From assembly GCA_038030265.1 (NCBI GenBank), contig CM075941.1, forward strand, positions 57,947,952 to 58,011,951: DNA of 64,000 nt, written 5' to 3'. The translations under genes were made by a program, and so were the position numbers. Positions within the stretch are counted from its first letter, which is position 1, and each line of letters begins with the position of its first letter. Below, piece by piece: positions 1 through 33,099 of the stretch. A model generated the notes under the pieces. It made no database searches, was not told where the DNA came from, and was given only the letters and a program-made list of their open reading frames with translations. This DNA is from Corythucha ciliata. Its lineage: Eukaryota; Arthropoda; Insecta; Hemiptera; Tingidae.

Positions 1-1144
1 CATAAAAGGGTCATTTCAGCCACTTTCCAGGCGCTATTGAAAACGATTCATCTTTTGAATTTCATGACTCTCGACCCTCACCCTTACCACCCCTCGTTTA
101 TTACAAAGCGTGTCAGATTGAAATGAGAGTACTAGGAAGGATGTACGTGAACAGTATAGAGCTTGAGTTTTAATCTGTAACCCCAAGGGAATGACAAAAA
201 CTTATACCACATAATTTGATATTTTAATTGGGACAGCATTATGAATCTCAAGGATTAACGACTGATGGTGAAGGGAGATGAAGAGAGGGCGGTTAAGGTC
301 CTTATTCAGCGCTTAATAATGACAAAATGATTTATAGCTAACGATTTCGTATAATCCCCTCTACCACCGCCAACCATTACAAACACCAGCCCGCACCTTT
401 TGCAATTCTGGGATGCTCCGGTTTTAAAATCTGTTACGCGACGTGCAAGATGTATGGAGTGCTGAAATTAATGGGAGAGGGTGTGTGACACTGAAAGGGG
501 GTGAAATTGACTTTCACCCTACGTACACAAGAAATTTCCGTTCAGAACCGTCCAACCTTCTATAAAGAAGGGATTTGCGAAGCGATACAGAAGGTTGGTG
601 GGAGACGGTCGGTATAGTCGAGGAATTAGCCTCATTTTTTCTCTCTCACTCTTCTCTTCGATGATAATGCGGGCTTATGATTTACGACGGGCTCTTTTTT
701 TGACTGAAAGAAGACAGCACGAAATTATAAAATTAATTGCTCCGAGAGAGAAGATTTTTTGGCAGACTTCCGGGGATTTGTTGTACCGGTTATAAATTTA
801 TTCAAATGCTATACAAATGACGATACCCCTCAAGATTATTTTGTTTTGTTTTAATGAGCCAAATCAGCGAAATTGTAGTTTCAGCAGGTCAATCCCGTGA
901 AATCAAGGCTTTCAGTGAATTTCTGAGGAGCCAAAAAGTCGAGTCAGAAGCACGAACTCCACCGTTCACCCGCCCCTTCGAGCGCGGCCACCTAGTCACG
1001 ACCCGCCGAAAGAATTAAGTTGACACAGGAGGTCGCGTTGTGCCAACCCTACATATACAATTGGCCATTCAAAGGAGGCAAAATCATGAAATTGACTTTT
1101 GAATGAACCAAACCCACGTAATAAAATTTGTTTTTATATACATA
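1..1144. other. Intergenic flank; the right part is a degenerate repeat array
   Basis: No gene is recognisable. From about 870 to 1144 the sequence repeats, loosely, a unit resembling GAGCCAAA..CGTGAAATTG, the same unit seen at 10712-11075. The large transposon 1145-10711 therefore appears to have landed inside one such array. Confidence 0.5.
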
Positions 1145-1480
1145 TAGTCCAGTCAAACGGTAGTTCCACGTAAACAAAAATCTCGTCTTCGATTTTTTGA
1201 CTTTATTTTATGTTTTTTGGGGTGAGGAACACGAATCTCAAGAGATCCAACAAAATTTCCTTGTGCGTTTTGAGAAACTCGCGAAAAACTGCTCATTTTT
1301 GGCACTTTTTTCAGTTTTTTGTTTATAACTCCTTAATGACGCATTCTACGGAAAATGTTACTCTCTCATTTTTTGAAAAGCATTGAATTCTGCGTCGAAT
1401 CGTGTTTTCTTTTGTCACAATTGACCCAGCCGTTTCACTGGTATTGATTTTTTTTTAAATGGTGAATTTTAGCCACTTTT
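1145..1480 (+). repeat. Left terminal inverted repeat of the XPG/CXC transposon
   Basis: The stretch from TAGTCCAGTCAAA through the run containing CTCGTCTTCGATTTTTTGAC, GGAACACGAATC, GCGAAAAACTGCT, CTGCGTCGAAT and ACCCAGCCGTTTCAC matches the reverse complement of 10392-10711 in order, with short indels and scattered substitutions. Confidence 0.85.
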
Positions 1481-1632
1481 GGTAAAATTTGCCGCAATTT
1501 ACCAGGCGGCCGAGGCAAGCTGCAACTTGAAAATGGCGGTTCCAATCGAAAAATGTCAAAAAATCAAATTTGTTCAGAATTGAATTTTACATAAGTAAAA
1601 AGCCTTGAAACTTACAGGAAAAATCAGTGGTA

Positions 1633-2235
1633 TCAGTTATGTAACAAAAAATGCGAAAAAAGGTGGGCCAAAAACCACGTTTTTCTGCACATTTTTGCCA
1701 ATAGCTCGAGAACTAGTTGTCCAATTTTTTTCATCTTGCAGCTGCATGCCATGGTGTCACAACCTTTGCTGCATTTGCACGCAACATTGGACAGCAATTT
1801 CTCCGGAGCTGGTGGTTTAGTGGTGAACACCGGCTGTAACCCATTGATCGTTTTCTTCCATCCATACATTTCTGGCTGTGGCTTCCCTCCAAGCCATAGC
1901 TGAACCTGCATGTAAACTCTGAGGAGATGTTGATGGGCAGGTTCGGTGGTTGGGGGGATGGACTCCATCTTCATAGAGCGCTTTTATACACTTTATACCT
2001 CACTTCATCCAGCGGAACGCCTACCTTTTCACCATACAGGGCTGCAATGAAATCCTCACCACTGTTCAACATTGATCCCAGGTTGAATGCAGGATCATGG
2101 GCTGGTTTATAGCTGGGAGGCAAGCTGAGGATGTTTGTCCAGTACTTTCATTGTTTTTGCCTTCCCCTGGCCATAGAAGGTGGAAGTGGTGTCACATCCG
2201 CTCACTGCATGGAGGAAGAGGATGTTGTTACGGAT
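1633..2235 (-). pseudogene. XPG/CXC transposase, C-terminal segment, broken
   Basis: This is the 3' part of the gene at 6356-9847, separated from it by the Penelope-like insertion. Directly after the target duplication the frame continues with ILFLHAVSGCDTTS and a YGQGKAK stretch, which I read as the GCD plus helix-hairpin-helix-like part of an XPG/FEN nuclease. A frameshift near 2110 leads to a segment with NLGSMLNSGEDFIAALYG, and another near 1975 leads to SIPPTTEPAHQHLLRVYMQ, GWKKTINGLQPV and PPAPEKLL. The end is CKCSKGCDTMACSC, a CXC (tesmin/TSO1-like) cysteine pattern whose second half has lost its cysteines. The order nuclease then CXC is, from memory, shared with large uncharacterised multicopy invertebrate proteins. 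Confidence 0.7.
2223..2235. repeat. Target-site duplication, left copy, of the Penelope-like insertion
   Basis: TGTTGTTACGGAT here is repeated exactly at 6343-6355 on the far side of the Penelope-like element. The first two bases could belong to the element end, so the duplication is 11-13 bp. Confidence 0.85.
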
Positions 2236-2510
2236 ACCTCCTCGAGAAGCGATGACGTGAACGTCCAAGACACAGGAGTTGGTTGGATTAAAGAAAACGT
2301 CTCGTTCACAGTGTTTATTTTTCCGAACCGGTTTTCAACTATTAATAGTCATCTTCAGGGATGCTGCGACAGTTTAATTTTAATCAATAAGTAACGTACG
2401 AAAATAAATAAGTAATAAATAAATAAATAAGTTAATAAATAATTGAATGCCTACGTTCTTTAAAGGGAAGCCCTTGTCGTTAGTAAAATATATGTATTTC
2501 CACACAGTGG
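2236..2510 (-). repeat. Penelope pseudo-LTR, downstream copy
   Basis: This 275-bp block is repeated directly at 5124-5398. It forms the 3' noncoding end of the full element and contains a T-rich TTTATTTATT track (complement) and a hammerhead-like motif. Confidence 0.9.
2319..2368 (-). ncRNA. Hammerhead ribozyme candidate in the Penelope pseudo-LTR
   Basis: On the minus strand: CTGAAGA at 2358-2352 fits the conserved CUGANGA core, followed by the hairpin ACTAT-TA-ATAGT, then GAA at 2336-2334, then the palindrome AACCGGTT (2333-2326) and a C at 2325 as the expected cleavage base. A self-complementary stem III suggests the dimeric form known in Penelope-like elements. Stem I is weak: only about three base pairs are visible. 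Equivalent copies lie at about 5207-5256 (minus) and 6248-6298 (plus). Confidence 0.6.
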
Positions 2511-2516
2511 TTGTCA

Positions 2517-5045
2517 TTAACTGAATGCTACGTGGGCTTTCACCGGTCTAGCCGCGTTTATGAGCGATAACGAATTCAGGAGAGGGGAACGAGCCATTTC
2601 TAATCTTTCGTTTAAGACCCTATCATTTCCATTTAAATTAAACTCCTGGAAAATCTCGGTCGCTTCCAGACAGTCCATGAATTTTCCTTTCGGAGCGAAG
2701 TGTAGTAAAGTCGCCTCGTGCTGTCCACTGTTTTGCCCTTCACAGTTGTCGACGTGGAGCTTAAATCGAGAGTTCGAGCGAGTTGTGTGTTCACGTAGCC
2801 GGTATTTAAGAGCGCGACCAACCTGACCAATGTAGAAGGCCTCTTCACATCTACCACACTTTAACCTGTAAATGCCACTCCGGTCCTCGAATTTCACGGC
2901 GTCTTTCAAAAAGGAAAACTTTTCTTTCAGGGTACCTGTCGATTTGTAGCCGATTCCATACCCTTTACGTCTCAGAATACTACCTATTTTGTCCGAAAGT
3001 GGCCCTAGGTATGGAAGCCTCATCCATTTCTTCTCCGGCGCGTCCAAAACTGATAAAGATGTCATATTTGAAAGCATGATCTTCCGTCTTTTCTTTTCAA
3101 TTAGGTTACCCACGAGTTGGGTCGGGTAACCATTAATATCCGCGAGGTGTTCTATAAATTGGAGCTCTTCGTCTCGGTCAAAAGTTGATAAAGGCAAAGT
3201 AAAGGCTCGATGGATCGCACTCTGAATACTTGATATTTTTTGCGACGGATGGTGGGCTGATTGGTACGGAATGGTAACATCCGTAGATGACGGTTTACGA
3301 AATATTTTAAATACGAGTTTTCCGTCTTCTTCTTGTCGTGTTACCCGTAAGTCCAAGAATGCAATTTCACCGTTAATATCCAGCTCGTGAGTGAATTTTA
3401 TCCGAGGCTTCTTAGTGTTGAGGAAATCTATGAAACCCTCAAGTTCTTGTTCTGAACCAGTCCAAACGAGGAAAGAATCGTCCACATACCGACAGTAGGC
3501 GAAAATGAATTGTCGGTAGGGGTTGTTGTCACTCATAATAAATTCGATATCAAACATATTCATGAAAACCTCAGCCGAAGTAGGCGAAAGCGGAGACCCC
3601 ATAGGTAGACCGGCATTCCTGTAAAACCGCCCGTTAAAAACGCAAAAATTCTCGTTGAGACAAGTCTCGTAAAGCTCCATGAGTTCACCGCCTTCCATTG
3701 GTGACAAACGGCTACGGTCGATAATCTCCTGAACAATCGGTTTGACGTCCTCCGGAGAAATGGAACAAAATAAATTTACCACATCAATGGATGCTAATTT
3801 GGCATTGCTTGGTATTTCCAGTGCCGAAAACTTCTTGACAAAGTCTACACTGTTCTGAACGGAATGCTCGGCGGTGAAACCTGTCCTGGTTTTGAACTCA
3901 CGGTCTACCTTCTTACAAAGTTTTTGTGAGGGAGCCGATGTGTAGGACACAATCGGTCTGAGTGGAATATTGGGCATGAAGTCTGCCTTGTGAACTTTGG
4001 GAAGTGCGTACAAGCGAGGTGGCTGAGGATTCATCTCGATGAGAGCTCCACTTCGTTTCTCATGCTCAGTTATGATGTATTCAGACCTTTTTACGACGTC
4101 CCTGATGGTAGTCTGGCTTTTATTGACTGGATTCCTTTTTATTTCATTAAAGCCATTATCCCGCATAAATGCAAGAGTTTTCTCCACGTACAGGTCCTTG
4201 TACATAATCACCGTAGCTTGTCCCTTATCAGCTTTTGTGACTATTAGGTCATTAGATTTAATCTTCTTTTGAAGGTTTGAGACCGTCTTGTACACTTCAC
4301 CCAAGTCATCCTCTGTGCGAGAGTCGTTGATGTGCTTATTAATAGCGACCGTTATCTCCTGTTTAATTTCTTCATCGTCCACTGCACTCTCGATCGATGA
4401 CACTAGGCTGACCATATCCTTATTCGATATTGGTTTCGATGGACAGAACTTCAGCCCTTTCTCCAGAAGATTTAATTCATCAGGATTGAAAATAAAGGGT
4501 GTCATATTCATCACCCTGGGAAAACAATTAAACTTTGAGCACGTGCTCCTCTCCTCGAAATTATTATTCCTAATTTTATGTTCATCCCTCTTTTTAACTA
4601 ATTTTCTAAGCTTTTCCTTAATCGATTCCTCTTTCCGTTCAAGTATGTACTGAATTTTTCTTTTCGTATCTAGCTCAAAAATTTCCCATTCCACATAGTG
4701 TAACGTATTAGCTAGCCTTCTATGAATCAAGTACAAATAAAAAATGAGAGTGTCTCTTTTATTATACCACCTCCCAATTTCATTCTTAATAATATTGATC
4801 TTTAACCTTTCAACAACATTCTCAAAACGTCCCCCTTCCCTTCTTTCAAACGACCTAACCGCTGGGTCATTTTCCACGTAGTTAGGGATTAACTTCTTTT
4901 TCAAACAGTCTAAATTGAAATAAATATTTCGTTGCGCTATCCCAGAACGTAATTTCAGTTTAAAGTAATATGCGGCTAATTCTTTTACCGAACATTCTTT
5001 AACAAAAGCTATAGAATTGTCATTAATCGTGTTAAATCGCTGCAT
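2517..5045 (-). CDS. Penelope-like reverse transcriptase with GIY-YIG endonuclease
   Basis: This is the only protein of the Penelope-like element: it copies element RNA into DNA and nicks the target. The ATG at 5045 gives 842 residues; an open frame continues upstream into the pseudo-LTR but has no ATG there. RT motif A is ASIDVVNLFCSI (about residue 418), motif B GLPMGSPLSPTS (about 480) and motif C CRYVDDSFLVW (about 518). The GIY-YIG endonuclease lies at about residues 720-800, with GIYRLKCGRCEEAFYIGQ and a downstream Arg and His (YRLREH). All expected blocks are present and the frame is open throughout, so the protein could be functional. The downstream untranslated part is the pseudo-LTR. 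Confidence 0.95.
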   Translation of the reverse strand: MQRFNTINDNSIAFVKECSVKELAAYYFKLKLRSGIAQRNIYFNLDCLKKKLIPNYVENDPAVRSFERREGGRFENVVERLKINIIKNEIGRWYNKRDTLIFYLYLIHRRLANTLHYVEWEIFELDTKRKIQYILERKEESIKEKLRKLVKKRDEHKIRNNNFEERSTCSKFNCFPRVMNMTPFIFNPDELNLLEKGLKFCPSKPISNKDMVSLVSSIESAVDDEEIKQEITVAINKHINDSRTEDDLGEVYKTVSNLQKKIKSNDLIVTKADKGQATVIMYKDLYVEKTLAFMRDNGFNEIKRNPVNKSQTTIRDVVKRSEYIITEHEKRSGALIEMNPQPPRLYALPKVHKADFMPNIPLRPIVSYTSAPSQKLCKKVDREFKTRTGFTAEHSVQNSVDFVKKFSALEIPSNAKLASIDVVNLFCSISPEDVKPIVQEIIDRSRLSPMEGGELMELYETCLNENFCVFNGRFYRNAGLPMGSPLSPTSAEVFMNMFDIEFIMSDNNPYRQFIFAYCRYVDDSFLVWTGSEQELEGFIDFLNTKKPRIKFTHELDINGEIAFLDLRVTRQEEDGKLVFKIFRKPSSTDVTIPYQSAHHPSQKISSIQSAIHRAFTLPLSTFDRDEELQFIEHLADINGYPTQLVGNLIEKKRRKIMLSNMTSLSVLDAPEKKWMRLPYLGPLSDKIGSILRRKGYGIGYKSTGTLKEKFSFLKDAVKFEDRSGIYRLKCGRCEEAFYIGQVGRALKYRLREHTTRSNSRFKLHVDNCEGQNSGQHEATLLHFAPKGKFMDCLEATEIFQEFNLNGNDRVLNERLEMARSPLLNSLSLINAARPVKAHVAFS

Positions 5046-5123
5046 AATTAATTCAAAAATAACAATTGTTTTGTCGCGCCTAACAGAAATGCTTCTTAAA
5101 TGCCGACGAGCACTCACTGCAAT

Positions 5124-5398
5124 ACCTCCTCGAGAAGCGATGACGTGAACGTCCAAGACACAGGAGTTGGTTGGATTAAAGAAAACGTCTCGTTCACAGT
5201 GTTTATTTTTCCGAACCGGTTTTCAACTATTAATAGTCATCTTCAGGGATGCTGCGACAGTTTAATTTTAATCAATAAGTAACGTACGAAAATAAATAAG
5301 TAATAAATAAATAAATAAGTTAATAAATAATTGAATGCCTACGTTCTTTAAAGGGAAGCCCTTGTCGTTAGTAAAATATATGTATTTCCACACAGTGG
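5124..5398 (-). repeat. Penelope pseudo-LTR, upstream copy
   Basis: Direct copy of 2236-2510, same length, no differences noticed. It abuts the 5' end of the RT gene unit and would carry the promoter and another hammerhead-like motif at about 5207-5256. Confidence 0.9.
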
Positions 5399-5417
5399 AA
5401 TCCATCGAGCCTTTACT

Positions 5418-6098
5418 TTGCCTTTATCAACTTTTGACCGAGACGAAGAGCTCCAATTTATAGAACACCTCGCGGATATTAATGGTTACCCGACCCAACT
5501 CGTGGGTAACCTAATTGAAAAGAAAAGACGGAAGATCATGCTTTCAAATATGACATCTTTATCAGTTTTGGACGCGCCGGAGAAGAAATGGATGAGGCTT
5601 CCATACCTAGGGCCACTTTCGGACAAAATAGGTAGTATTCTGAGACGTAAAGGGTATGGAATCGGCTACAAATCGACAGGTACCCTGAAAGAAAAGTTTT
5701 CCTTTTTGAAAGACGCCGTGAAATTCGAGGACCGGAGTGGCATTTACAGGTTAAAGTGTGGTAGATGTGAAGAGGCCTTCTACATTGGTCAGGTTGGTCG
5801 CGCTCTTAAATACCGGCTACGTGAACACACAACTCGCTCGAACTCTCGATTTAAGCTCCACGTCGACAACTGTGAAGGGCAAAACAGTGGACAGCACGAG
5901 GCGACTTTACTACACTTCGCTCCGAAAGGAAAATTCATGGACTGTCTGGAAGCGACCGAGATTTTCCAGGAGTTTAATTTAAATGGAAATGATAGGGTCT
6001 TAAACGAAAGATTAGAAATGGCTCGTTCCCCTCTCCTGAATTCGTTATCGCTCATAAACGCGGCTAGACCGGTGAAAGCCCACGTAGCATTCAGTTAA
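5418..6098 (+). pseudogene. Inverted Penelope fragment: C-terminal RT/GIY-YIG piece
   Basis: This plus-strand open frame of about 226 codons is the same sequence as the last quarter of the minus-strand RT at 2517-5045, including the whole GIY-YIG domain. It has no RT core, so it is a 5'-truncated, inverted part of the same insertion rather than a gene. Its 3' noncoding tail (6099-6342) repeats the pseudo-LTR in inverted orientation and carries a plus-strand hammerhead-like motif at 6248-6298. The junction with the upstream pseudo-LTR is at about 5399. Confidence 0.92.
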
Positions 6099-6342
6099 TG
6101 ACAACCACTGTGTGGAAATACATATATTTTACTAACGACAAGGGCTTCCCTTTAAAGAACGTAGGCATTCAATTATTTATTAACTTATTTATTTATTTAT
6201 TACTTATTTATTTTCGTACGTTACTTATTGATTAAAATTAAACTGTCGCAGCATCCCTGAAGATGACTATTAATAGTTGAAAACCGGTTCGGAAAAATAA
6301 ACACTGTGAACGAGACGTTTTCTTTAATCCAACCAACTCCTG

Positions 6343-6355
6343 TGTTGTTACGGAT
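6343..6355. repeat. Target-site duplication, right copy, of the Penelope-like insertion
   Basis: Exact copy of 2223-2235. Splicing the two flanks at one copy restores an uninterrupted minus-strand frame (GNNIRN then ILFLHAV). Confidence 0.85.
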
Positions 6356-9300
6356 GTTATTGCCGACTACGCTCGAGGGGTGAAACCATACGGTTTTGGC
6401 TTTTCCTCTGCCTGGTTTCGTGAGGAACGAAACGTTGTGAGGAACTGAAAGTCCTATCACCAGTACTAGCAGGTCGACATCCTCCCCAACCACAGTGACA
6501 GTGCTGGTGTCTGCGGATATCTGGATTGCTGTAGTGATGATCAGCCTATCACCGTCTTCTTCTGCCTGCTTGGTGGGGATGTTGCAGGAATGAAGTTTCG
6601 TCTTCAGCAAAGTGATGAACCGCTTCTTATTACGGTCGTTCCCCAAGAAGTGCTCTTGGGAAACCTCCGGTTTCATATCTTCTGTCAACAAAACTTCTGC
6701 CGAATATTTTTTTGTTGCTCTTCTCAACCGTTCTGCATGTTTCGTTCCACTGCGGTCTTTAGGGTATCCGACAAAAACCACGATGGGGTTATTGAAGTGT
6801 CGGTTCAAGTAAGAGATGTAGGAGTCGCAAATTTGATTAAACGTTGATCCGTATCCCCACATCACTCTTTGTAGTAAAAAACCCCCATCTATTACATGAC
6901 GGGTATCTTCGGGTATTTGGGAGTCGGGCAAGGGGCGGAAACAATTGTATAGACTGGATTTAGTGCCTTCCTCATGAACCCTTCATGAAAGAGAGAAGTC
7001 GGGTATGGACTCAACTCGTACTGCAGGAACTCCTTTAATTCCTCTTCAGTTTGTTTGATGATGGTCATTCGGTGGTATAATGTGGTGGGATCGAAAATTA
7101 TTTCCTTGTCAAGAATTTTAATTGCTGAGTGCATCACGGAGAGAGGCTTCACTCGATCATTTCTTTGGAATTTGACTGTCTTCAAGTTCAAACCTATTAT
7201 TTTCGCCAAACCGTTCTGTCCAAGCTCTCTCGCACGATGGCAGTTGACACGTTCATCTCCAACTATTCAGGTGCTCACAGAGATGATCTGTTTAGTCTGT
7301 GGAAAAGGGTAGTGATTCTCCAGCCATTCAATGAGTTTCATCGAGTCTGACGTGTCCCTTTCAACTCTGGACTCCCTGCTGTCAATATGCTGTTCACTGG
7401 TCTGAAAATGAACCCCACAGAAGGATTCAACGACGTCAGCTATCTGAGCCATGGCTGCGTGTCCTAGCAACCATCTGGTGGCAACGCTGTCAGAAAGGTT
7501 TCGCGATCTGGTCAGTCCACCCTCAACTTTGATGCTTCTCATAAGTACTTGCTCTATAGTCTGATCTGTAAAAGTGCCACACCACAGTTTGTCACTCCTG
7601 CGAACTGTGAAGGCTCCTCCATCAGTGAATCGCATGTACTCTTCTTGCGGCATTTTTTTTTCCAAACCAAGCATGTCCTAAAGATACAGGTGCGCACACT
7701 TGGCGTAGAGGTAATGTCCACTTGAGTGGAAATACGGGAGCATGAAGAAAATAGTTCTTAAATGCAGTCCCCAATCACCTTTTCTCTCTGCCTCAATAAG
7801 TTGTTTTAGAAGAGTAACCATCTCGAAGTACTGTATCCACAGTTGCGCTGTACTTCCACACTTTGACAGCTCAATGAGTGTCTCGCTAAAGGTTGACAGT
7901 TCCTTCAACACTCCGTCTACATGATTGCTATTTATTTCACTTCGGTCGCCACCGTACAAAAGCTCTTGTGCTCTTAAGTGAAGTTCAGAATCAACCTCCA
8001 TAGATTTCATTATGACGCAAGCCAGGTTTCTATGAGTGAGAAAGTGTGCCCTAATAGCACGTGCGTAAGAATGACCGGTCATTATCTTTGCAGTGCTGTT
8101 AACAGCGTAAATCGTGCTGAACAGCTCGCTCAGGCCGCTCCCTTCCATGATGTATCCGATCGCTCCCATGAAGGACATGATGAGGTGAAACCCACCTAGT
8201 CGTACGACTACGTTTGGGAACTCGTTGGGGTTAGTTGCTATGATTTCGCGAGCTTTCAGGTAGAGGGGCTGATCGAACGTCGCAATTGCCGTCGCTTGGC
8301 CCATTGACAAAGTTGTCTGCTTGGCGCAAACCAACGATGTATAAACGGTGTCGAAATCACTTGGTGGTGCGTTTATGAAAGGTTGACAGGCGACAAAGGT
8401 GGTTTCATAAGGCAACCCTTAATTTCATTTTCTCCATGAATCCATTCCAGCCTCCCGTGCCAGGTAAACCTGTGGCTTTGCTATAAAGCCACAGGAGGTC
8501 GGGTGTTGTTGGAAGTACGATGTTCATCGGTGAGAATTTTTCTCCGACAGCCTGAATCTCCACGTCCTTCAAGCCTCCACTTCCACCCCCATGATACGGT
8601 AGTAGTGTGATGGAACCAGTACCTGCCACCTCTTTTGCAGATGGTAATTTCAATATTCTACTGAATCTTTGTCCTGGGACCACTGCTTTTTTAGGCGTTA
8701 GCAACACAATGCCACCCATGACGTGAAACGTTTTGTGTCCATCTAGGGTCTGGATATTGAAGTCGGCGTTGTCGTAGACACACTGAGCAAATTTGTCTTC
8801 TTCTATTTTTGGAGGGGGACACAGAGCACATGAAATCTCACAACGAGCAACTTCTGAGTAGGAGGAACAAAAGCCCAATGCCGATAAAACGTCAATCAAC
8901 TTTCGAGAACCGTACATTTTGTACAAGAATGCTGCCAACCTAACTTGTACTGGGGAGACGAATGAATTGGGCCTCACAACAGTGATAAGTGCATGTGACA
9001 AGGCAGCTGCTTTTCTCTTCCACTTATCCAGACAGCCCCGTTTTTTCTTCAAAACAAGTGACTCGGTGAAAATTTTGAGTGTTTCTGGGACGAGATCTTC
9101 AGAACCCTCAATGAAATCGTGGCAAGGAGGATAAGTGGTGGTGTCGTAGACTTGAGTCCTAATGTCTTCAGCTATAATTGCTGCTGCTGTCTCCACAATT
9201 CGTTTTCTTTCATCTGCTTCGGATTCACACTTCTGCGTGTACCATGCGTCTGTTATAATTTTGTATCAAGTATTCTTGAAACACACAATGGAGGGTTTCA

Positions 9301-9847
9301 AGTCCGTGATTTGTATGTCATTTCCATACTTCTCAATCAATCGCCTTTTAATAGTCTTCCACACTGGAATATCTTCTTCGTCCGGCCACTGCTTCATCAG
9401 TTCATCCGCTGTGAACTGGCACTCTTCGTCACTATTCTCGAGGTAGGCAAAAATCGGTTCCATTTTTCGATCGATTGAATTACGAGGCCGTCCTCGCCCC
9501 TCAACAGTTTTAAATTTCTTAAGATCCAATTTCTTCTTACAAGACAAATGGTATCTCCCACCTGCAGCTTGCAAATCCGTGATTGGCTCTAGACGATGAA
9601 CTATTGCCCGAGTAAAGTCGTCGTTCCATGCTTTTGCTGAATCCAGGATAGAATTTCTGACACCTTCGGTTAATACAGGAATAATAGGATCACGGCGGAA
9701 TAAGGAAAGTTTTTTCTGTTTCTCTTCGTAATCATCAGGTATTTCCTCACCGCAAATGCAACAGTAGGTCCTGAAGTTGAAGGAGTATCTGGGTGACATA
9801 GCTCGACCTGAATCATACCTCAATCTCCTCACAGCTGCAGCAATCAT
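6356..9847 (-). pseudogene. XPG/CXC transposase, N-terminal and central segments, broken
   Basis: This large gene starts at ATG 9847. The N-terminus has a CCHC-type finger: CCICGEE near 9755, then GRYHLSCKKKL. The central part holds ATFDQPLYLKA and RLGGFHLIMSFMGAIG, which may belong to an RNase H-like fold (tentative). The C-terminal part has XPG/FEN-like acidic blocks: VIDGGFLLQRV near 6890, EEDGDRLI near 6560 and VVGEDVDLLVLV near 6470; the matching GCD block lies beyond the Penelope insertion. Breaks: in-frame TGA at 9264-9266, TAG at 7675-7677, TGA near 7265, and frameshifts near 8410 and between 6905 and 6945. Reading resumes immediately after each break, so decay is recent. The role as the mobilising protein follows from the flanking inverted repeats; the alternative is a host nuclease family captured by an element. 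Confidence 0.75.
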
Positions 9848-10391
9848 GCGTTCATTTACATAGCTCTTCCTGCATTTGACGTGCAGTTCACGACTGTTCT
9901 CACACTTGAACTTAACGCTCTTGCCGTCCTCCCTTTCATTACTTGCCGCTGTTAAAGTTTTTAATCCTTCTCTAACTACAACTGTGGGTCAACCATCCCT
10001 TAAGGGTCCGTCACAAATCAAGCAATCGCGCACAGACATTTCACCAAGAATTCTTTGCTTTGTATTTGAAAAACAAACGCTTCGAACTAAACAGTACGTA
10101 AAGCAACGAATGCGTCTCCATAATAGCTCTTCCTTCTGGACGTCACCCTCTCAGACGGACATAAGCATAAGTACGTCATTTTTACAAGCAAGATTCACTG
10201 CACAAAATTATTCATTCATTCTCACTTGTTTTTATAGTATATACATTCAGACCATACCCCTTCTGACACTCATTTCAAGCAGTCAGACTTCCTCTCTATT
10301 GCGTCATAACGTCACCAGTATTGTAGGTAGCGTCATAGATTACATCACTCAACTGAGAGTTGAACTATTTTTATTTTTTCACACATTTTTC
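9848..10391. other. Noncoding leader of the XPG/CXC transposon
   Basis: This lies between the transposase start and the right inverted repeat. It should hold the element's promoter and leader. Short open frames here show no recognisable motif. Confidence 0.4.
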
Positions 10392-10711
10392 CGAAAGCGG
10401 CTATAGAAATGACCATTTAAAAAAATCAACACCGGTGAAACGGCTGGGTCAATTGTGACAAAAGAAAATATGATTCGACGCAGAACTTGATGCGTCATAG
10501 AATGCGTCATTGAGGAGTTGCAAGCGAAAAACTGAAAAAAGTGCCGAAAATTAGCAGTTTTTCGCGATTTTCTCAACAGGCACAAGTAAATTTTGTTGGA
10601 TTTCTTCAGATTCGTGTTCCTCGCCCCAAAAAACATAGAAAAAAGTGAAAAAATCAAAGACGAGATTTTTGTCCACGTATGGTTTTTTTTTTATACGATT
10701 TGACTGGACTA
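10392..10711 (-). repeat. Right terminal inverted repeat of the XPG/CXC transposon
   Basis: Inverted copy of 1145-1480. The outer tip complements TAGTCCAGTCAAA; the right copy has an extra A/T run near the tip (10683-10694) that the left copy lacks. Confidence 0.85.
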
Positions 10712-11720
10712 ATAGCCAAGCCCACAAAATTGATTTCTCTGCGAGGGAAAATCCAAAAAATTGATTTATGGCTACACAAAAGCACCGAAATTGAATTTTC
10801 AAAAATACAATCACGTGAAATTGTTATTTTCAGGGACTAAAACCCCGCAAAATTAGTTATTTCTAGGTCTTTGGAGCGAGCCAAAACCGTGAAATTGGGT
10901 GTATTCCGACATAAATCCGCATGAATCGTACAGCTTGTGACTGCTGAGCCATCTTAAATTGAGTTTCTGAACGAGCCAACCCCGCGAATTTTGTTTTTTG
11001 AAGAGTGAAGCCCAGGAAAGTGTTCACGCCTAAACTAAAAATTTCACAGTACAACTTTTAAAATTCAAGTCATTACCCCCAAAAACTGGTGAATTCCGCC
11101 TAAAAATGGCGGGTTTAACCTAAAAGATCAAAAACGAATGATTTTAATTGCAATTAACAGGCCACTCAGTACTAAAAACTGCCGATTTTATCCTTCAATT
11201 GGCGATTTTAGTAAAAAAAAAAAACGTACAATTCCTGGCCAAAGCTGACAAGCCCTCCCCCTCCAAATGAAGATGGTACCGCAAAACTGGCGATTTTAAC
11301 CTAAAACTAAACTTTACTGTTCCATTTACACCCGAAACGACAATGTCCCCTCAAAATTAGATAATTTACTCTAAAACTGTCACACTTTAACTCAAGTTTT
11401 CCTCAAAACGGGTGATTTTAGGACATTCTGCCTTGAAAACAGGTGATTTCACACAAAAAAAAAGTGACAAATTCATCGCAAAAGTGACGATTTTATACCA
11501 AAACGGACGATTTCATGCCAAAGCTGACGTGTTGCCTCATAACTAATGACGTTAATACAAAACTGGTCATTTTACCCTAAAAAAAACTGACTGTTTTAAT
11601 TCCAAAACTTACCATTTCATCCCAAAGACGTTTCTAAACTGACGATTTTACCCTGAAACTTGCGGTTCCACCCAAAAAATATCACTTCACCTCGAAACTG
11701 AATATTTTACTTCAAAATTG
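10712..11720. repeat. Two adjoining degenerate tandem arrays
   Basis: 10712-11075 repeats units like GAGCCAAAACCGTGAAATTG. From about 11076 the unit changes to AAAACTGACGATTTTACCCC-like text with about 30-base spacing. Units are strongly diverged and of uneven length. Confidence 0.65.
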
Positions 11721-16310: not shown

Positions 16311-19157
16311 TCACAAGTTCCATATCACAAGCTTACCATCTTTATAACCCAAAATTTGGCTTAGGAACTCCTCGAAAGTATAAAAACTGTTTTCCACAAA
16401 AAAAATCTTCAACTTTGATCGGAAATTTTCAACATCCAGACTCACAAATTCAAGCGGAAGGGAATTGTAAAATTTAATGCCCCACCAATCAGCCCTACCC
16501 TGCGACTTGGCAAGCCTACAAAAGGGTGTGATTAATCTGCCACAATTCCGAGTAGGATAACTTTGAATGGCCAAATCTTTTCTGGACTTGTGTACATGAA
16601 GAAGGGAAATATACATATAAACCGATGGTAAAGTCATGATCTTCAGGTTACGAAAATCAATTTTACAGTCATCCCTATATTTTTTATTGCATATAATTCT
16701 AATGGCTTTGCGTTGGAGGGAAAAAATAGACTTAGCTCGCGAACTGTGTCCCCATGCAAGCAACCCATATGTGAGTGGCGAGTGAAACAATGCGAAATAC
16801 GTGCCTAAAAGCACCGAATTAGAAACAGAATGTTTCATACGCCTAAGAAGAAAAATTACTTTCGACAGGTTCCCAGACAAAAATGAACTATGCCGATCCC
16901 AAACGAGGCGGTCGTCGATATGCAAGCCCAAGAATTTAACGGAGCGTCTCTCGTCACCGATGGTGGATCTGAAGTCCATAAACTCGGTCTTTTCCCTATT
17001 TAGAGCAAGTAGGTTGGCTGAAAACCAGTCCTCAGCTCTATCCAACGCGGCCTCAGCTTTCTCATCCACTGACGTTAACGAGTCATTCTTCACCAAGAGG
17101 GTGGTGTCATCAGCAAATAAAACGCAGTGAGTGGATGGACTTAAAGCGGCTGGAAAATCATTGATGAAAATCAGAAACAGCACTGGCCCCAGAATAGACC
17201 CTTGAGGCAGACCATGCTGGACAAGGGACAAATCAGACACATCAGAACCAATTTTTACAGCTTGCTTTCGGTTCGAAAGAAATGATGCAACAAGGTTAAC
17301 AGCATCGGGTGAAAAGTTGTACCACTTTAATTTAGCTACAAGCACCTTATGTGACACGCTGTCAAAAGCTTTCTTGAGGTCAATGAAAATCCCCTTCACG
17401 TGCTCCTTCTGTTCGAAACCAGCCAGAACCTCATCAACAAGATCAACAATCGCCGCCGTCGTGCTTTTACCAGATCTAAAGCCGTACTGATGAGAGGATA
17501 AGAGACCCATATCTTCCAAGAAATCTACAATATTACTTTTCATTAATTTCTCCAAGATCTTGGAGAAAACTGGCAAAATACTTATAGGTCTGTAATTATT
17601 TGGGTCCAAACGATCGCCTCTCTTATATATAACTGAGACCAAAGACGTTTTAAGACACGTCGGAAAAAGACTAGCAGAAATACAACAATTCAACAAGTAC
17701 GTGAGTTCGGGAAGAATCTCATCGATAATGCCCGTTAGTATGGGAACGCTCAGGCCAAACCAATCAGGAGCTTTGCTGTTATTCAGTGACAAAACACATT
17801 GCTTCACCGCAAGCTCACTCACATGCTTAAAATCGAATGTCTTAAGAGGTTTATTACTTCGTTTGAAGTCAGCAAAATTACTAGTGCCAGGCTTGATATT
17901 ATTCAAAACATCCTGCTCGACAACTTTAGAAAAGTGAACATTGAATTCTGCGGCAGTTAGAGGCGGGTCTGGGTGACTCCTAGCTTTGTTCCTAAGATCA
18001 TTTACGAGATCCCAGGAGGCTTTCTGCCTATTGGAAGCGTTGTTTATTTTATTATCATTGTAGGCAATTTTAGCCGCTTGAACAGCCTTTTTATATTCTT
18101 TTCTTAAATTCCGTTTTAGACTCTTGAATGAATTATCGGCACAGCAATGGGACAGATTGCACACAATTTCGAGTTTTTTTCTCATTTCACACAACTCATT
18201 TGTATACCAACGGTTATCAGCCTTGTTTGACTTTCTCACCTTTACATTCTTTAAGGGAAAACAATCTTCAAAACAAGAGGAGACCGTGTTTACAAATAAA
18301 GCCCATCTTTCGTCCAGATCTAGGTCAGTGTTATAAACAAACCCCCAGTCTATTAAAGATAAACAACAACAAAGTGACTGTAAGCTCTCCAGGGTTAAAG
18401 GGCGAACTAATTTACTCTCACTCTTCAGCGATGGACTTGTGTTAATATAATCACGATCAATATTAATAATTTGAGCTCTATGGTCAGAAAAACCAGGATC
18501 AACGTTCAAAACATGACACCTATCGTTCGGAAAATTTGCGAAAACAGCATCAAGCAAGTTAGCCCCGCGAGTAGAACTCTCATTTTGTAATGAAAACCCG
18601 TACATTCTAAGAATATCCAACAAATCTTTCGCCCGTTTATCAGTTACCTTATTGAAGTGAACGTTGAAGTCACCGGTTATTAGAGTATCGCTACTTAACA
18701 CCTTTTGTAGCATTCTTTCAAAGCTATCCATAAATATATTAAATTCCCCATGAGGGGGCCTGTAAACAGTAACAATATTGGTCTTATGATGCACTAATCG
18801 TGTGGCTGACATCTCGCAGTGGTTCTCAACGGAATACATGTTGGCTTCAATGATGGGCAGAGCATCGACATTTTCCCGTACAAGAACCGCAGACCCACCA
18901 TGCTCAGAATGAACCCGTGAGAAAGCAGATGACAAGAAGAACCCTGGCAGCCGGAAGACATCGTAGAAACCCTCCTTCATCCACGTTTCACTTATTAGAA
19001 CGACGTCTGCAGTTATTTTGTTTTCGATGAAGAAACCATCAAGGAGATCAGCCTTACTCCTCAAAGAACAAATATTGTAGTGAAAACAAGTAAAATAAGG
19101 TGTCACTTCTTCACTGTGTGAATGCGTAAAAAGACGTTCATTCAATTCGTTAGGCAT
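16311..19157 (-). CDS. LINE ORF2: apurinic-type endonuclease and reverse transcriptase
   Basis: 948 residues from ATG 19157. The product nicks target DNA and copies element RNA at the nick. The endonuclease covers about residues 20-235: HYNICSLRSKADLL, ISETWM, VYRPPHG, TGDFNVHFNK and FSDHRAQI (catalytic Asp/His). RT motifs follow: YKRGDRLDPNNYRPISILP, FIDLKKAFDSVSHKVL (about 594), GLPQGSILGPVLFLIFIND and CVLFADDTTLL (about 682). The C-terminus has the usual YGLLAWGHS and LQRKAIRII blocks. The frame has no breaks, so it may be active. It starts 44 bases after the ORF1 stop. Confidence 0.95.
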   Translation of the reverse strand: MPNELNERLFTHSHSEEVTPYFTCFHYNICSLRSKADLLDGFFIENKITADVVLISETWMKEGFYDVFRLPGFFLSSAFSRVHSEHGGSAVLVRENVDALPIIEANMYSVENHCEMSATRLVHHKTNIVTVYRPPHGEFNIFMDSFERMLQKVLSSDTLITGDFNVHFNKVTDKRAKDLLDILRMYGFSLQNESSTRGANLLDAVFANFPNDRCHVLNVDPGFSDHRAQIINIDRDYINTSPSLKSESKLVRPLTLESLQSLCCCLSLIDWGFVYNTDLDLDERWALFVNTVSSCFEDCFPLKNVKVRKSNKADNRWYTNELCEMRKKLEIVCNLSHCCADNSFKSLKRNLRKEYKKAVQAAKIAYNDNKINNASNRQKASWDLVNDLRNKARSHPDPPLTAAEFNVHFSKVVEQDVLNNIKPGTSNFADFKRSNKPLKTFDFKHVSELAVKQCVLSLNNSKAPDWFGLSVPILTGIIDEILPELTYLLNCCISASLFPTCLKTSLVSVIYKRGDRLDPNNYRPISILPVFSKILEKLMKSNIVDFLEDMGLLSSHQYGFRSGKSTTAAIVDLVDEVLAGFEQKEHVKGIFIDLKKAFDSVSHKVLVAKLKWYNFSPDAVNLVASFLSNRKQAVKIGSDVSDLSLVQHGLPQGSILGPVLFLIFINDFPAALSPSTHCVLFADDTTLLVKNDSLTSVDEKAEAALDRAEDWFSANLLALNREKTEFMDFRSTIGDERRSVKFLGLHIDDRLVWDRHSSFLSGNLSKVIFLLRRMKHSVSNSVLLGTYFALFHSPLTYGLLAWGHSSRAKSIFSLQRKAIRIICNKKYRDDCKIDFRNLKIMTLPSVYMYISLLHVHKSRKDLAIQSYPTRNCGRLITPFCRLAKSQGRADWWGIKFYNSLPLEFVSLDVENFRSKLKIFFVENSFYTFEEFLSQILGYKDGKLVIWNL

Positions 19158-19201
19158 CTGTCGATCAACGAGACAATCGTCGTGAATAAAAAGCGAGTCT
19201 T

Positions 19202-20329
19202 TTATCCTAAAAAATGACTTCCTTGTGAATATTCACCGATTATACGATCAGAGTTCAGTGACCCATAAAAAAATTTAACAAAACAGCCCGCGGGCCAGGC
19301 CTGGTCGATAACGAGTTTGTTTATGTCCTCTTCAAAAACTTCAATATAAAAAGAGGAGTATGAACTGTGATTGGTTTTCAGCTGGCAACATCTAAAGTTC
19401 GTTACGGCCAGAGAGTTCAAATGAACTCCAAGCTCTACACAATTGGAATTCGGGTCAAGACGCGACACAAAAACTCGTTTCAATTTTTTTGTTTTCTTGT
19501 TCAAATCAAGCGGCACCGCTCTAATCGCTGTTCCTTCCCCAGTCCCAAGAACCACGCGGCCGGGCCTACGTGATTTTTCTTTACGTCCTGGGGGCGGCAG
19601 GAGGGGGACCGAAACAGGCAGGTCCTCAGCCACTATAGCGGTAGGGTCCTCGACTGGGACACCAACCGCAGCGTTCCGTCTTTTCCGGATAGGCCTGGAA
19701 GGGCCCTCCATTACCTTTAAATCCGAATCCTGTTGCTCGTCACCGTCACCAGATGGCAGAAGATTCATGTCCACCGCACCCAATGAAGTCGAAGACTCAA
19801 TTTTGCGAGAAGTTTCATAGACACTTCCACGAGCAGAGTCCGGTCTTTTAGCGAGGATGTGGTCAACAGCTGGCTGCCCGACAGGCTTATCCCCACAGTC
19901 GGCTACCGAAGTGTTCGGTGCTCTCTCACGACTAATACATTCACACAGAGTCATCATTTGCTGTTTTAACTTTCGGTTGTCATCAAATAAGACATCACAC
20001 TTCTTCGACAGCTCAAGGCAAGTTTTGCTCACTGTCTCAAGCTCAGTCACTACAATGCTGAGGAGTGAAGAAGACACAGCTGCATCATTATTCGTGTCAC
20101 ACGCAGACTTACCGTTGCCATAATCTTGTAACGCCTTATCACAAGCCGTGCAGAACCACTTGAGTTTTACTCGAATTTCGCGTATATCGTCAAGGTTTTT
20201 TATAGAAAGTCCAGCGCAACCACTGTGGAACAGCCCCGAACAACTTCCGTCACATTTAATAGCCCGGTCCGTACTTAAAAAAGGAGACAAACAACGAGCG
20301 CACAACGGGTTACTTTTCGTCGCCGCCAT
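19202..20329 (-). CDS. LINE ORF1 protein with PHD-like zinc finger
   Basis: 375 residues from ATG 20329 (MAATKSNPLCARC). The open frame runs further upstream, but that part lies in the BEL/Pao LTR, so the ATG at 20329 is chosen. An N-terminal Cys/His cluster (LCARC, KCDGSC, LFHSGCAGL, WFCTAC) fits a PHD-type finger known from ORF1 of CR1/Jockey-related LINEs. A Leu-rich stretch (CLELSKKCDVLFDDNRKLKQ) may be a coiled coil. The middle is polar and basic (RPIRKRRNA, GRKEKSRRPGR) and the C-terminus is folded-looking (KRVFVSRLDPNSNC). It probably coats element RNA. Confidence 0.85.
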   Translation of the reverse strand: MAATKSNPLCARCLSPFLSTDRAIKCDGSCSGLFHSGCAGLSIKNLDDIREIRVKLKWFCTACDKALQDYGNGKSACDTNNDAAVSSSLLSIVVTELETVSKTCLELSKKCDVLFDDNRKLKQQMMTLCECISRERAPNTSVADCGDKPVGQPAVDHILAKRPDSARGSVYETSRKIESSTSLGAVDMNLLPSGDGDEQQDSDLKVMEGPSRPIRKRRNAAVGVPVEDPTAIVAEDLPVSVPLLPPPGRKEKSRRPGRVVLGTGEGTAIRAVPLDLNKKTKKLKRVFVSRLDPNSNCVELGVHLNSLAVTNFRCCQLKTNHSSYSSFYIEVFEEDINKLVIDQAWPAGCFVKFFYGSLNSDRIIGEYSQGSHFLG

Positions 20330-20345
20330 CTTTTCAAGGCTAGTG

Positions 20346-20350
20346 GTGGC
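20346..20350. repeat. BEL/Pao target duplication, left copy
   Basis: GTGGC, repeated at 26486-26490. Confidence 0.8.
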
Positions 20351-20590
20351 TGATGACGCCTCATTTTGAAACAAAGCGCCATGTGGCGGCGCTCTCCTGC
20401 CAACGGCCTCTTCCTTGTTGATTGATAAAACCAAGATAAAACAATATTCGTTTCGTTCGTTTTGATATCGTTTAAATAAAAGTTGTGCCTCATGCGTTAA
20501 CCAGTTTTTTTGCGTTTTCTTACTTGTTCCAATAAATTAATAATAAGTTAGCATCACAGCAGAAATACAGTCCAACCTCAGGATCCCACA
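20351..20590 (+). repeat. BEL/Pao 5' LTR
   Basis: 240 bp, TGATGACGCC to GGATCCCACA. Identical to 26246-26485 except one base in AAATT(A/C)ATAATAAG. TTTAAATAAAAG and CAATAAAT are possible polyadenylation signals. Because the LINE is on the opposite strand, this LTR now lies upstream of LINE ORF1. Confidence 0.95.
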
Positions 20591-20941
20591 AAATGGTCCT
20601 ACCAGGCGGATTTAACCGCTTAATTGCTAAGTAGAATCGTATCATCGCACTCGGACTTCGTCTCAAGCCGTATCGTTCACGTTTTTCAACTCGAGCTGCT
20701 GCCAAATGCCAAAGGTATCGTTCCCTAATCCTTTACGCCTTCCAATTCCATTCGTCTGATTTCGTAACTTCCTGTCTTTCACTGAATCTTCGAATTAGAT
20801 CAGAATCCTTCACGTTGGGCTAGCACATTTTTCGATTATCGTTTTTCTCATTGATGGTTAGACTTAACTTATTAGCAATTAAATTTAGTTGTAGTCTATT
20901 ATAACACTTTTTTTTCGATTTCCTAGTTATATTTCGTTATC

Positions 20942-22999
20942 ATGCCCCCAAAAAAGTACGATCTTACCCCTCTCGTCAAGAAACGGCTCGTCCTTGATAG
21001 CAGATTAAGGGCTTTCGATGCATATCTGTACAAGCTAGATGAAAAAACTGCGTGTGACGGAGGACTTCTCATTCGACAAGAAAAAATAAACGACATTTGG
21101 GATGAATTTCAAGAGATACAATCTAAAATCGAGGAATCGATCGATGACAAGGATGAGGAGGCTTCGCATTTAACATTTCGCGAGGAATTTGAATCTCGAT
21201 TTTATCGTTCTGTCGGCCGTTCTCGTGAATTACAGAAAGGCAACAGCAGTCCAGTTGACTCATCGATGACTCCGGGGCCCGTTCCTCTCTCAAATTATGA
21301 TGACCTTCGACTACCGCCCTTGTCTCTTCCCAATTTTGATGGTGACATGGATGAGTGGACATCATTTTTTAGTATTTTCACTGACGTAGTGCACGAGAAT
21401 CCTCGTTACTCAGATTCCTCTAAACTAAAGTATTTGAAAAATGCATTGCGTGGGGAGGCTTATAGTCTAATTGAGTCACTTGAGTTGACATCAGCCAACT
21501 ACATCGTAGCTCTTAACTTGCTTAAGGGTCGCCACGACAACCCTGTTCGGTCAGTTTTAAGGCACGTCAGAAGCCTCTTCGATCTTCAAAAATTGGAAAG
21601 GGAATCTCTCCCTCAAATCAGAGCGTTGCTAGATTCGTCTCAAAAACACCTTCGAGCCCTAAAGGGGCTACACCAGCCGACTGAGAGTTGGGATGTTTTA
21701 ATCGTTCACCTCATAACAAGTAAATTCGAGACAAACACTTTGAAGGAATGGGCAAAGGTAGCCCCTTCGCACGAGCTGCCTACGGTAGCCAGGCTTTTCG
21801 AGTTCTTGGAGGGCAGATGCCAAATACTTGAAGCCATTGATAACCAACGTCCCAGTCAGAACCCCCCTTCGTCTCGTCAATTCGAAAAACAACTCAAAGT
21901 TTCTGCTCCGCAAAGGTCATCTCGTTGCTTGGTTGTCAACAACAAAGGCAGAGAATGCGCGCTCTGCCACGAACCTCATGCCATCTATTCGTGCTCTCAG
22001 TTCTTGAAAATGCCTGTTGAAGATAGGTTTAGTTTCGTAAAAAGCAAACAGCTCTGTATCAATTGTTTGGGCACGAAGCACCGCGTTGCTGATTGCAAAT
22101 CTGCTTCCACTTGCAAAATCTGTCAAAAACAACACAATTCATTGTTGCATCGTTTATCATCGTCGCTTTCGCAAGCCCATCGCCATTCGTCGTCTGAAAA
22201 CGTTTCGTCGTCTGTCAACACCTCGTCGCAATCCATCGCTCAACCGATTACACCTAGTAATACCATCGCAATGACGTCATGTGCCCCTCAAAATTCAGTC
22301 GTTCTGCTGGCTACAGCCAAAATTACAGTGTTTGGTCCGAAAGGCCCATTTCACTGTCGCGCCTTGCTTGATTGTGCAGCACAATCTAGTTTCATGACGT
22401 CGTCTCTTTGCAACCGTCTCGGACTGAAGAGAAATCTTGCTTCAATCAGCGTCGAAGGATTTGATGGAACAGCAGTTCCCATTCAGCACAAGATCGAAGC
22501 CAAAATCGGTTCTCGAGTATCGACTTTCTCTCGTAAGTTAGAGTTTCTCGTGGTGCCCAAAATCACCAACTACAATCCTCAGGTGAACATCGACGTAAAA
22601 ACCCTTCATCTACCTCCGCATGTCGTTCTTGCTGACCCGAACCCAGCTGAAATGGGCGAAATTGAAATCTTGTTGGGTGCTGGAATATTTTGGGATTTAA
22701 TGGGGCATGGGCAGCTAAACCTCAGTGGGAAGACTTTGTCTCTTCGCGAAACAAAACTTGGCTGGATAATCACTGGCGCTGCTTCCACGTCGCTCACTAG
22801 TCATTGTTGCGTAATCTCCGACGTGGCCGTTGAGTCCATAGACAAAACAATTAAAAAATTTTGGGAAATTGAAGCACTTGATAACCCCCCTCACTTGACG
22901 AAGGAAGAAAGTTTGTGCGAAGAAATCTACGCTTCAACAACATTTCGGGATGCTCATGGTCGTTACCATGGTGGTTGTCAAGATCCCTTTGAAAAATAA
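20942..22999 (+). CDS. BEL/Pao gag and protease polyprotein
   Basis: 685 residues from ATG 20942 (MPPKKYDLTP). The capsid region includes LPPLSLPNFDGDMDEWTSFF and LKYLKNALRGEAYSLIESL, typical of BEL/Pao gag. Cys/His knuckles begin near residue 338 (CALCHEPHAIYSCSQF, CINCLGTKHRVADC, CKICQKQHNSLLH). The retropepsin-like protease has ALLDCAAQSSFMTS near residue 475, where DSGS or DSCS is more common, and ILLGAGIFWDLM. The frame ends soon after the first RT-linker residues (RDAHGRY) because of a one-base shift; pol continues in the next frame. Confidence 0.93.
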   Translation: MPPKKYDLTPLVKKRLVLDSRLRAFDAYLYKLDEKTACDGGLLIRQEKINDIWDEFQEIQSKIEESIDDKDEEASHLTFREEFESRFYRSVGRSRELQKGNSSPVDSSMTPGPVPLSNYDDLRLPPLSLPNFDGDMDEWTSFFSIFTDVVHENPRYSDSSKLKYLKNALRGEAYSLIESLELTSANYIVALNLLKGRHDNPVRSVLRHVRSLFDLQKLERESLPQIRALLDSSQKHLRALKGLHQPTESWDVLIVHLITSKFETNTLKEWAKVAPSHELPTVARLFEFLEGRCQILEAIDNQRPSQNPPSSRQFEKQLKVSAPQRSSRCLVVNNKGRECALCHEPHAIYSCSQFLKMPVEDRFSFVKSKQLCINCLGTKHRVADCKSASTCKICQKQHNSLLHRLSSSLSQAHRHSSSENVSSSVNTSSQSIAQPITPSNTIAMTSCAPQNSVVLLATAKITVFGPKGPFHCRALLDCAAQSSFMTSSLCNRLGLKRNLASISVEGFDGTAVPIQHKIEAKIGSRVSTFSRKLEFLVVPKITNYNPQVNIDVKTLHLPPHVVLADPNPAEMGEIEILLGAGIFWDLMGHGQLNLSGKTLSLRETKLGWIITGAASTSLTSHCCVISDVAVESIDKTIKKFWEIEALDNPPHLTKEESLCEEIYASTTFRDAHGRYHGGCQDPFEK

Positions 23000-25900: not shown

Positions 25901-26264
25901 TCCTAGCAATCGACTTTCACGTTGGCAATATGTTCAACAAGTTGTACAACATTTTTGGCAACGCTGGTCAACAGAATACCTGCAAGAACTGCAACGACGC
26001 ACCAAGTGGAAAACTACTTCGAAGAATCTTGAGACTGGAACGCTTGTCTTAGTCAAGAACGATCAGGCGCCACCTCTCGCTTGGAATTTGGGCCTGGTCA
26101 CAGACACCCACAAAGGACCCGATGGTTACCTTCGTGTCGCCACCGTTCGTACAAAGGCTGGGCACTTCAAGCGGAATGTTCGAGACCTCTGCCCTCTGCC
26201 CATCGAAGACAATAATGAAGACAATGCTTCATGGCGGGGAAGACATGATGACGCCTCATTTTGA
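22950..26264 (+). CDS. BEL/Pao pol: RT, RNase H and integrase
   Basis: 1,104 codons from ATG 22950; homology really starts near 22970 (VVVKIPLKNNVKLLGNSRD), continuing the gag-protease reading in the +1 frame. RT has KLRVVFDFSCKSSSG, ICGDIEKMYRQI and FYVDDLITG (about residue 213). RNase H has GFSDASTTAYGA and YWTDSQIVLSWL (about 470). The integrase has an HHCC finger (H...HLGPQGLL...CIKC) near 722 and catalytic acids at VDYAGPIF (about 788), YSDNGSNFVGA (about 853) and LWESGVRIV (about 909). The frame ends inside the 3' LTR. The single shift at GGTCGTTACCATGG could be a mutation, an assembly error or, less likely, programmed. Confidence 0.94.
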   Translation: MLMVVTMVVVKIPLKNNVKLLGNSRDIALRRFVNLERRFALNPELKVKYQTFLEEYRGLGHMERVDASTIASTTCYFVPHHAVFKETSSTTKLRVVFDFSCKSSSGYSLNDLSAVGPTIQPSLSRHLIRARIYPVLICGDIEKMYRQILVDPTQTPLQLILWRDSPSEQLEIFKLLTVSYGNSSAPWLATRTLKQIALDHHHNVSSHILQNHFYVDDLITGCNNASEAVQLRSQISHHLSLGGMHIRKWSSNSHTFMENVPQKDRELNSTISFDEDSSVRTLGLLWFPRNDVFSFAINQTDLALDGKEQYTKRCLLSTISKFYDPLGLIGPVITKAKILMQRLWVENYGWDDPLHDGIVEEWSSLCSSLSSLTELKIPRCIVIPGATKFELHGFSDASTTAYGACIFLRSSTHFGDVAVHLVTSKSRVAPLKILSLPRLELCAALLLAELIEQTLPSLENLDIDTVTYWTDSQIVLSWLNGPPSKWTTFVANRVAKIQDLSQPKQWKHVKSSDNPADLISRGTFADQLVKCNLWWKGPQWLTDDQPSHNYGHFEPQEISELPETKIVKSTVLMTTGTSNIDTKIHIITSLTRCSSFNRIVRIIAYCFRFRELSRNNQDSRLKGPISSIEFEESRLALFRLCQRLMFPDESQSLLKGKPIKSSSHIATLSPFLDHKGIIRVGGRLQASQLIPERKHPILLTHGGKSEVNKITLILAEQIHKDNAHLGPQGLLATIREQYWPINGRNLCRLIYHRCIKCFRANPKSSSQIMGQLPQARVEPSRPFYNCGVDYAGPIFIRTSSRRNAPLVKAYISLFVCLATKAIHLELVENLTTEAFLAALRRFMSRRGKPLIMYSDNGSNFVGAKNELKELRDLWKSENHIDAIVNQLSSQNIEWKFIPPKSPNFGGLWESGVRIVKRHLKRLIGSHNLTFCELNTVLVQIEGCVNSRPLTPLPSSPDDLNALTPAHFLIGSSIVELPEPDLKQLPSNRLSRWQYVQQVVQHFWQRWSTEYLQELQRRTKWKTTSKNLETGTLVLVKNDQAPPLAWNLGLVTDTHKGPDGYLRVATVRTKAGHFKRNVRDLCPLPIEDNNEDNASWRGRHDDASF

Positions 26265-32969: not shown

Positions 32970-33099
32970 AATGTAGTCATTAAATTTGTTCGGTAATTTT
33001 AGGGTCGAACGATTTTAGGTTCGACTGTATCGCCTGTCGCAGTAGTTACTTTGTGTGAGTCTGAAAACTCCTCAAAAGTTTGGAACAATTATTTTCTGA

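Follow-up and report, generated by a model that had tools for sequence, protein, structure and literature searches.

The window analysed here is a 64,000-nucleotide stretch of the Corythucha ciliata genome (assembly GCA_038030265.1, contig CM075941.1, positions 57,947,952 to 58,011,951 of the forward strand). Its positions 1145 to 10711 hold a DNA element with terminal inverted repeats (TIRs) and a minus-strand gene, very probably a dead transposon of the AcademX lineage. The features of this locus are as follows.

1142..1144: target-site duplication ATA, left copy (flank comparison)
1145..10711, minus strand: whole element, very probably of AcademX type, non-functional copy (TIRs, 3-bp duplication, homologous copies in the same genome)
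1145..1491, plus strand: left TIR (repeat comparison in the window)
1732..1734: point where up to ∼1.2 kb present in other gene copies, the remainder of the Cys cluster among it, is absent from the window copy
1734..2235, minus strand: remainder of the nuclease (SGCDTTS region) and the shortened start of the Cys-rich (CXC) tail, with internal frame changes
about 2236 to 6355: retroelement with a reverse transcriptase (RT) inside the gene (RT frame, 13-bp duplication, empty sites elsewhere)
6347..6982, minus strand: first blocks of the XPG/FEN/Exo1-like nuclease (VIDGG, FVG instead of FDG, EEDGD, GEDVD)
6895..8418, minus strand: middle part of the gene, in a different frame, with the second DDE aspartate (TFDQPLYLK), GGFH and the glutamate (IEAER); in-frame stops inside
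8408..10039, minus strand: N-terminal part of the gene, with Cys/His pairs, a winged-helix-like region and the first DDE aspartate (VYDNADFN); in-frame stops inside
10381..10711, minus strand: right TIR (repeat comparison in the window)
10712..10714: target-site duplication ATA, right copy (flank comparison)

A preliminary description, made from the window alone, had inverted repeats of about 320 bp bracketing the element, with ATA or TA on both outer sides. The repeats were borne out by alignment of 1168-1491 (left) with 10382-10678 (right), which gave 79-80% identity over 314-326 columns. The 13 outermost bases, TAGTCCAGTCAAA, match exactly at 1145-1157 and 10699-10711, and ATA stands immediately outside both ends, making the alternative TA unnecessary.

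The strand of the gene was also given correctly, and the motifs named at the time (VIDGG, EEDGDRLI, GEDVDLLV and SGCDTTS) are all present; the gene, put at about 1,340 codons, is broken. Read from 10039 on the minus strand, it is disrupted ahead of the retroelement insert by four or more in-frame stops and by two changes of frame, and further frame changes follow beyond the insert. The second nuclease aspartate is a valine in this copy (FVG; FDG in relatives). At 1732/1734, ∼1.2 kb is absent that occurs wholly or partly in other copies, and because of this loss the Cys cluster is shortened; only the start of the tail remains of the CXC cluster originally described, while in loci L010 and L023 reading continues at this point through a complete cluster. 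The window element is a dead copy. Note that the N-terminal Cys/His pairs were called zinc-finger-like by eye. The middle part matched Pfam DUF6589 weakly (E 0.002, below the cut-off), and a PDB sequence search using the window piece alone returned no match. Scans of the window with ARAGORN and Rfam (gathering threshold) gave nothing.

The retroelement that interrupts the gene has a 901-amino-acid frame bearing the RT (RVT_1 in Pfam, E 9e-7, slightly under the cut-off) and long internal inverted and direct repeats, among them a 955-bp stretch that repeats the element's end perfectly in inverted orientation. It is probably Penelope-like. The tail of the frame resembles GIY-YIG by eye; the best Pfam match is RVT_1. 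The insertion site is empty in five copies elsewhere (L010, L013, L023, L025 and L034), where element positions 1091 and 5199 join with a 13-bp overlap; this overlap is the duplication created by the insertion.

Copies of the family were sought in the genome assembly (400.9 Mb, 57 contigs). A search with the left TIR, in which the best 40 of 1286 candidates were scored, listed 40 matches, and 20 TIR loci were retrieved for inspection. A second search with a 2-kb gene piece (36 of 36 candidates scored) gave 15 matches over all or nearly all of its length at 93-100% identity, along with partial matches at 92-98% and related families at 69-79%. The preliminary description had named two things that would count against it, gene copies without the TIRs and TIRs scattered without the gene at random spacing, and both were looked for. 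For each of the 15 full or near-full gene copies, one TIR end or both could be located (both for eight, one for seven). No left end was found in the stretches probed at C3:48.73, C5:49.96, C7:5.41, C2:8.82 and C2:32.62, and no right end at C5:13.16; for C5:59.54 the right end was not probed, and the left end, oriented like the gene match, lies at least 4.7 kb away from it. Instead of random spacing, 10 of the 20 retrieved TIR loci are short two-ended derivatives of near-constant length (1.52-1.54 kb), and the remainder are gene-bearing, deleted, interrupted or have one end visible. An unrelated dispersed repeat is rejected because the gene-less copies retain both element ends. These derivatives, about 1.53 kb long, resemble miniature inverted-repeat transposable elements (L014, L015, L018, L020-L022, L024 and L026-L028).

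A perfect duplication flanks each of the 19 copies for which both ends could be paired, 3 bp long in 13 of them and 4 bp in six; the eight paired copies that carry the gene wholly or partly are all included. When the right flanks were randomly re-dealt in 5000 rounds, 2.2 of the 19 copies matched on average and never more than 8, and among mismatched pairings of the same flanks 3 bp was reached in 22 of 342. The duplication count covers two-ended copies of this family, excluding copies with a single end in the retrieved stretch and termini that belong to other, related elements (in L013, L017, L024, L026, L027, L028, L030 and L052); L016 was paired although its right end lies ∼0.9 kb past its inner TIR match. 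Empty sites, which the preliminary description had suggested inspecting, were searched for with the 19 joined flanks. Sites spanning the junction at 96-99% identity were found for at least six of the 19 copies, three of them gene-bearing; the best 40 of 7442 candidates were scored, and the counts are a lower bound. Ends of related elements were seen in L027 (6617-8341) and L028 (4524-7100), differing from the terminal 13-mer at one or two bases; by eye they seem flanked by matching 3 bp (taa and tga) and were left uncounted.

Seven full-length relatives of the joined protein, 1457-1508 amino acids long and including Photinus pyralis LOC116165167, span 98-100% of the query (7991 candidates scored). 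Shorter relatives comprise 213 matching the nuclease part and 298 matching the middle part, of which the best 120 each were listed. The species named among these listed matches are, as far as we recognised them, all arthropods. Upstream of the XPG domain, the predicted fold of relatives contains a separate RNase H-like DDE domain with a long helical insertion, whose D, D and E (D238, D404 and E568 in P0131 numbering) are invariant in all 58 alignment rows; the nearest solved structure is the P element transposase (6pe2). The nuclease fold predicted for relatives is clearly Exo1-like, a firmer match than that of the DDE fold. In a sequence profile, six acidic positions line up with residues that are metal ligands in Exo1, and the six carboxylate positions counted are conserved in 63-67 of 67 rows. 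This count omits the first nuclease aspartate (VIDGG), which is D in seven of seven full-length relatives. Fold and aligned residues thus support the XPG/FEN acidic blocks recognised in the preliminary description. Conserved Cys/His positions across the relatives suggest zinc-binding blocks at the N-terminus and a Cys-rich tail at the C-terminus, and the part of one relative's predicted model matching 8408..10039 has weak winged-helix-like structure matches. In relatives, one uninterrupted frame of ∼1,460-1,550 amino acids encodes the whole protein, which has a putative zinc-binding N-terminus, a winged-helix-like region, the DDE core, the Exo1/FEN-like nuclease and the Cys-rich tail, in that order.

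Pfam scans of the window pieces and five full-length relatives gave almost nothing. XPG_N and XPG_I matched none of the five full-length relatives, and XPG_N matched one of 67; the Pfam XPG models probably miss the family through divergence. DUF6589 scored above the cut-off in three of seven relatives scanned, four of the seven having been picked because their listing showed DUF6589; the name was not found in the literature searched. No helicase family was listed among 12 relatives scanned. A scan of viral contigs gave 87 pattern matches, none confirmed as a relative.

The same genome holds other families of this design. A search with one relative (P0001; best 32 of 1324 candidates scored) gave matches of 38-60% identity, some with uninterrupted frames of up to 1547 amino acids; for the window's family the longest uninterrupted match among those listed is 1231 amino acids (C2:57.82). 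A second family (L057 and L058-L061) has 0.93-kb TIRs that are 97% identical, three copies 99.4-99.8% alike over the compared stretches, and an uninterrupted frame of 1538 amino acids counted from the first Met; it looks recently active. Another has ∼0.59-kb TIRs (95%), and one of its copies has a 1463-amino-acid uninterrupted frame; the frame of a sister copy contains a single stop. The ends of these two families read TAGTACAGTCA and TAGTCCAGTCA, respectively. Printed flanks showed duplications in five of five copies of the two families, of 3 bp (ATA, TCA, ACT, TAA) or 4 bp (GATG). Because this genome contains families whose genes are uninterrupted and whose copies are nearly identical, there has likely been recent activity.

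Taken together, these data make it very probable that the window element is a dead cut-and-paste element of the Academ superfamily, AcademX lineage, whose protein joins a DDE core to a fused Exo1/FEN-like nuclease; the Academ-like direction of the preliminary description is upheld. The AcademX nuclease is of the XPG type, and a Cys8 finger is typical of Academ proteins in Repbase. Published accounts place Academ among the DDD/E superfamilies (available parts of PMC9587614), and a bivalve survey treats it likewise (PMC10294476, in part). Within Academ, AcademX has duplications of 3 or 4 bp and AcademH of 9 or 10 bp, a difference that the authors tie to the encoded nuclease in the former and helicase in the latter (available parts of PMC10045372). 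The present element was filed under AcademX because every testable feature agrees: TIRs, a DDD/E transposase domain, a nuclease in place of a helicase, and duplications of 3-4 bp in 24 of 24 copies (19 in the window's family and five in the two others). No difference from AcademX was found by published description and features, Repbase Academ sequences not having been compared. AcademH shares the superfamily name and differs in its helicase and 9-10 bp duplications (PMC10045372, in part). In the literature searched, AcademX is named in one paper. A single sentence on the AcademX nuclease, and no description of its fold, was found in the available parts of PMC10045372, PMC10799480, PMC12210899, PMC4455052, PMC9143410, PMC10294476 and PMC9587614, and PMC3706591 does not mention Academ.

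Among other known systems, the P-element (6pe2) and Hermes hAT transposases have, as here, an RNase H-like DDE core with a long helical insertion; this likeness is one of common fold only. P and hAT superfamilies make 8-bp duplications, a length seen in 0 of 24 copies here, and neither transposase is known to have a fused flap nuclease. Human Exo1, FEN1, XPG and GEN1 have the nuclease fold in common with the element protein at 10-15% identity, and differ as host repair enzymes without a transposase. KolobokE, KolobokD and KolobokP are likewise DDD/E transposons with an accessory nuclease, of different folds (lambda exonuclease, DnaQ and His-Me finger; PMC9587614, in part). Because these lineages already pair a DDE core with other nucleases, accessory nucleases per se are not new. 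The element kind itself is already known; what is added here is a structural assignment for both domains, evidence from duplications and empty sites, and the finding that many proteins deposited as uncharacterised belong to this kind of transposon.

Several other explanations were weighed. That a multicopy host gene family should lie by chance between unrelated inverted repeats is scarcely credible: relatives are indeed deposited as uncharacterised or under odd names, as such a family might be, but at least one TIR end accompanies 15 of 15 gene copies, all eight two-ended copies have perfect duplications, three gene-bearing copies have empty sites, and two more families with different TIRs share the design. 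A host gene is rejected for the window's family by the duplications and empty sites. It is improbable, if somewhat less so, that the element is a DDE transposon with an XPG-type nuclease from another or unnamed superfamily that merely resembles AcademX. The AcademX match is by description, the nearest solved DDE fold is that of the P element, and some relatives match DUF6589, all of which leave room for this; against it stand the missing 8-bp duplications and the published account of AcademX as a nuclease-bearing lineage with 3- or 4-bp duplications (PMC10045372, in part).

The remaining alternatives concern the nuclease. The strongly conserved carboxylates and the firmer Exo1-like fold could be read as making the XPG/FEN nuclease the transposase itself and the upstream domain structural, which we consider very unlikely. 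The upstream RNase H-like core has its D, D and E invariant throughout, DDE strand transfer typically leaves short, perfect duplications behind, and Academ is placed among DDD/E superfamilies (PMC9587614, in part). The DDE core led us to reject XPG as sole transposase, and because this separate domain lies upstream, the most likely role of the XPG block is that of an accessory nuclease. Of the preliminary description's claim that the family is a transposase and not a host gene, the transposon protein stands, and the implied reading of the XPG block as its catalytic core most likely does not. The description had overlooked both the DDE domain and the dead state of the copy. An appreciable, minor chance remains with a nuclease acting outside transposition proper, by steering host repair after excision or by attacking other DNA. 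The Kolobok lineages, with their varied accessory nucleases or helicase, favour this in that the accessory enzyme is exchangeable (PMC9587614, in part); fusion into the same polypeptide, the conserved active site, and the differing duplication lengths of the Academ lineages that encode a nuclease and a helicase (PMC10045372, in part) argue for a role within transposition.

In the proposed mechanism, the zinc and winged-helix parts would bind the TIRs and so locate the element ends. Judged by the fold, the invariant residues and the duplications, it is likely the DDE core that cuts the ends and, with a stagger of 3 or 4 bp, joins them to target DNA. A plausible task of the fused flap nuclease would be to trim 5' flaps or frays, either at the donor ends or where the element is joined to the target. 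More tentatively, DDE transposition and the element's own Exo1-like resection of flaps may be coupled in one polypeptide. At donor or target ends the nuclease would take off a 5' flap or some of the second strand, so that the element itself does a share of the gap repair otherwise left to the host, and whether the accessory enzyme is a nuclease or a helicase would set duplication length. With a DDE core nearest the P element and an Exo1-like nuclease assigned, the role of the nuclease is directly testable.

Deposited names of the relatives include uncharacterised, "Tesmin/TSO1-like CXC", "Exonuclease 1", "asteroid" and metabolic enzymes (among the matches listed). Many such arthropod proteins match that of the transposon, and masking or renaming them is advisable. 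Three transposase-matching proteins carry host names: P0188, P0193 and P0235 (glutamate-cysteine ligase, CaM kinase-like and glycerophosphodiester phosphodiesterase, respectively). These names reflect mis-annotation or fused gene models.

Elsewhere in the window, translations inspected by eye resemble retrotransposons: frames of the long interspersed nuclear element type at 16311-20536 (endonuclease and RT), long overlapping frames like those of BEL/Pao-type long terminal repeat retrotransposons at 20927-26264, and frames resembling Copia-type pieces at 31591-34034.
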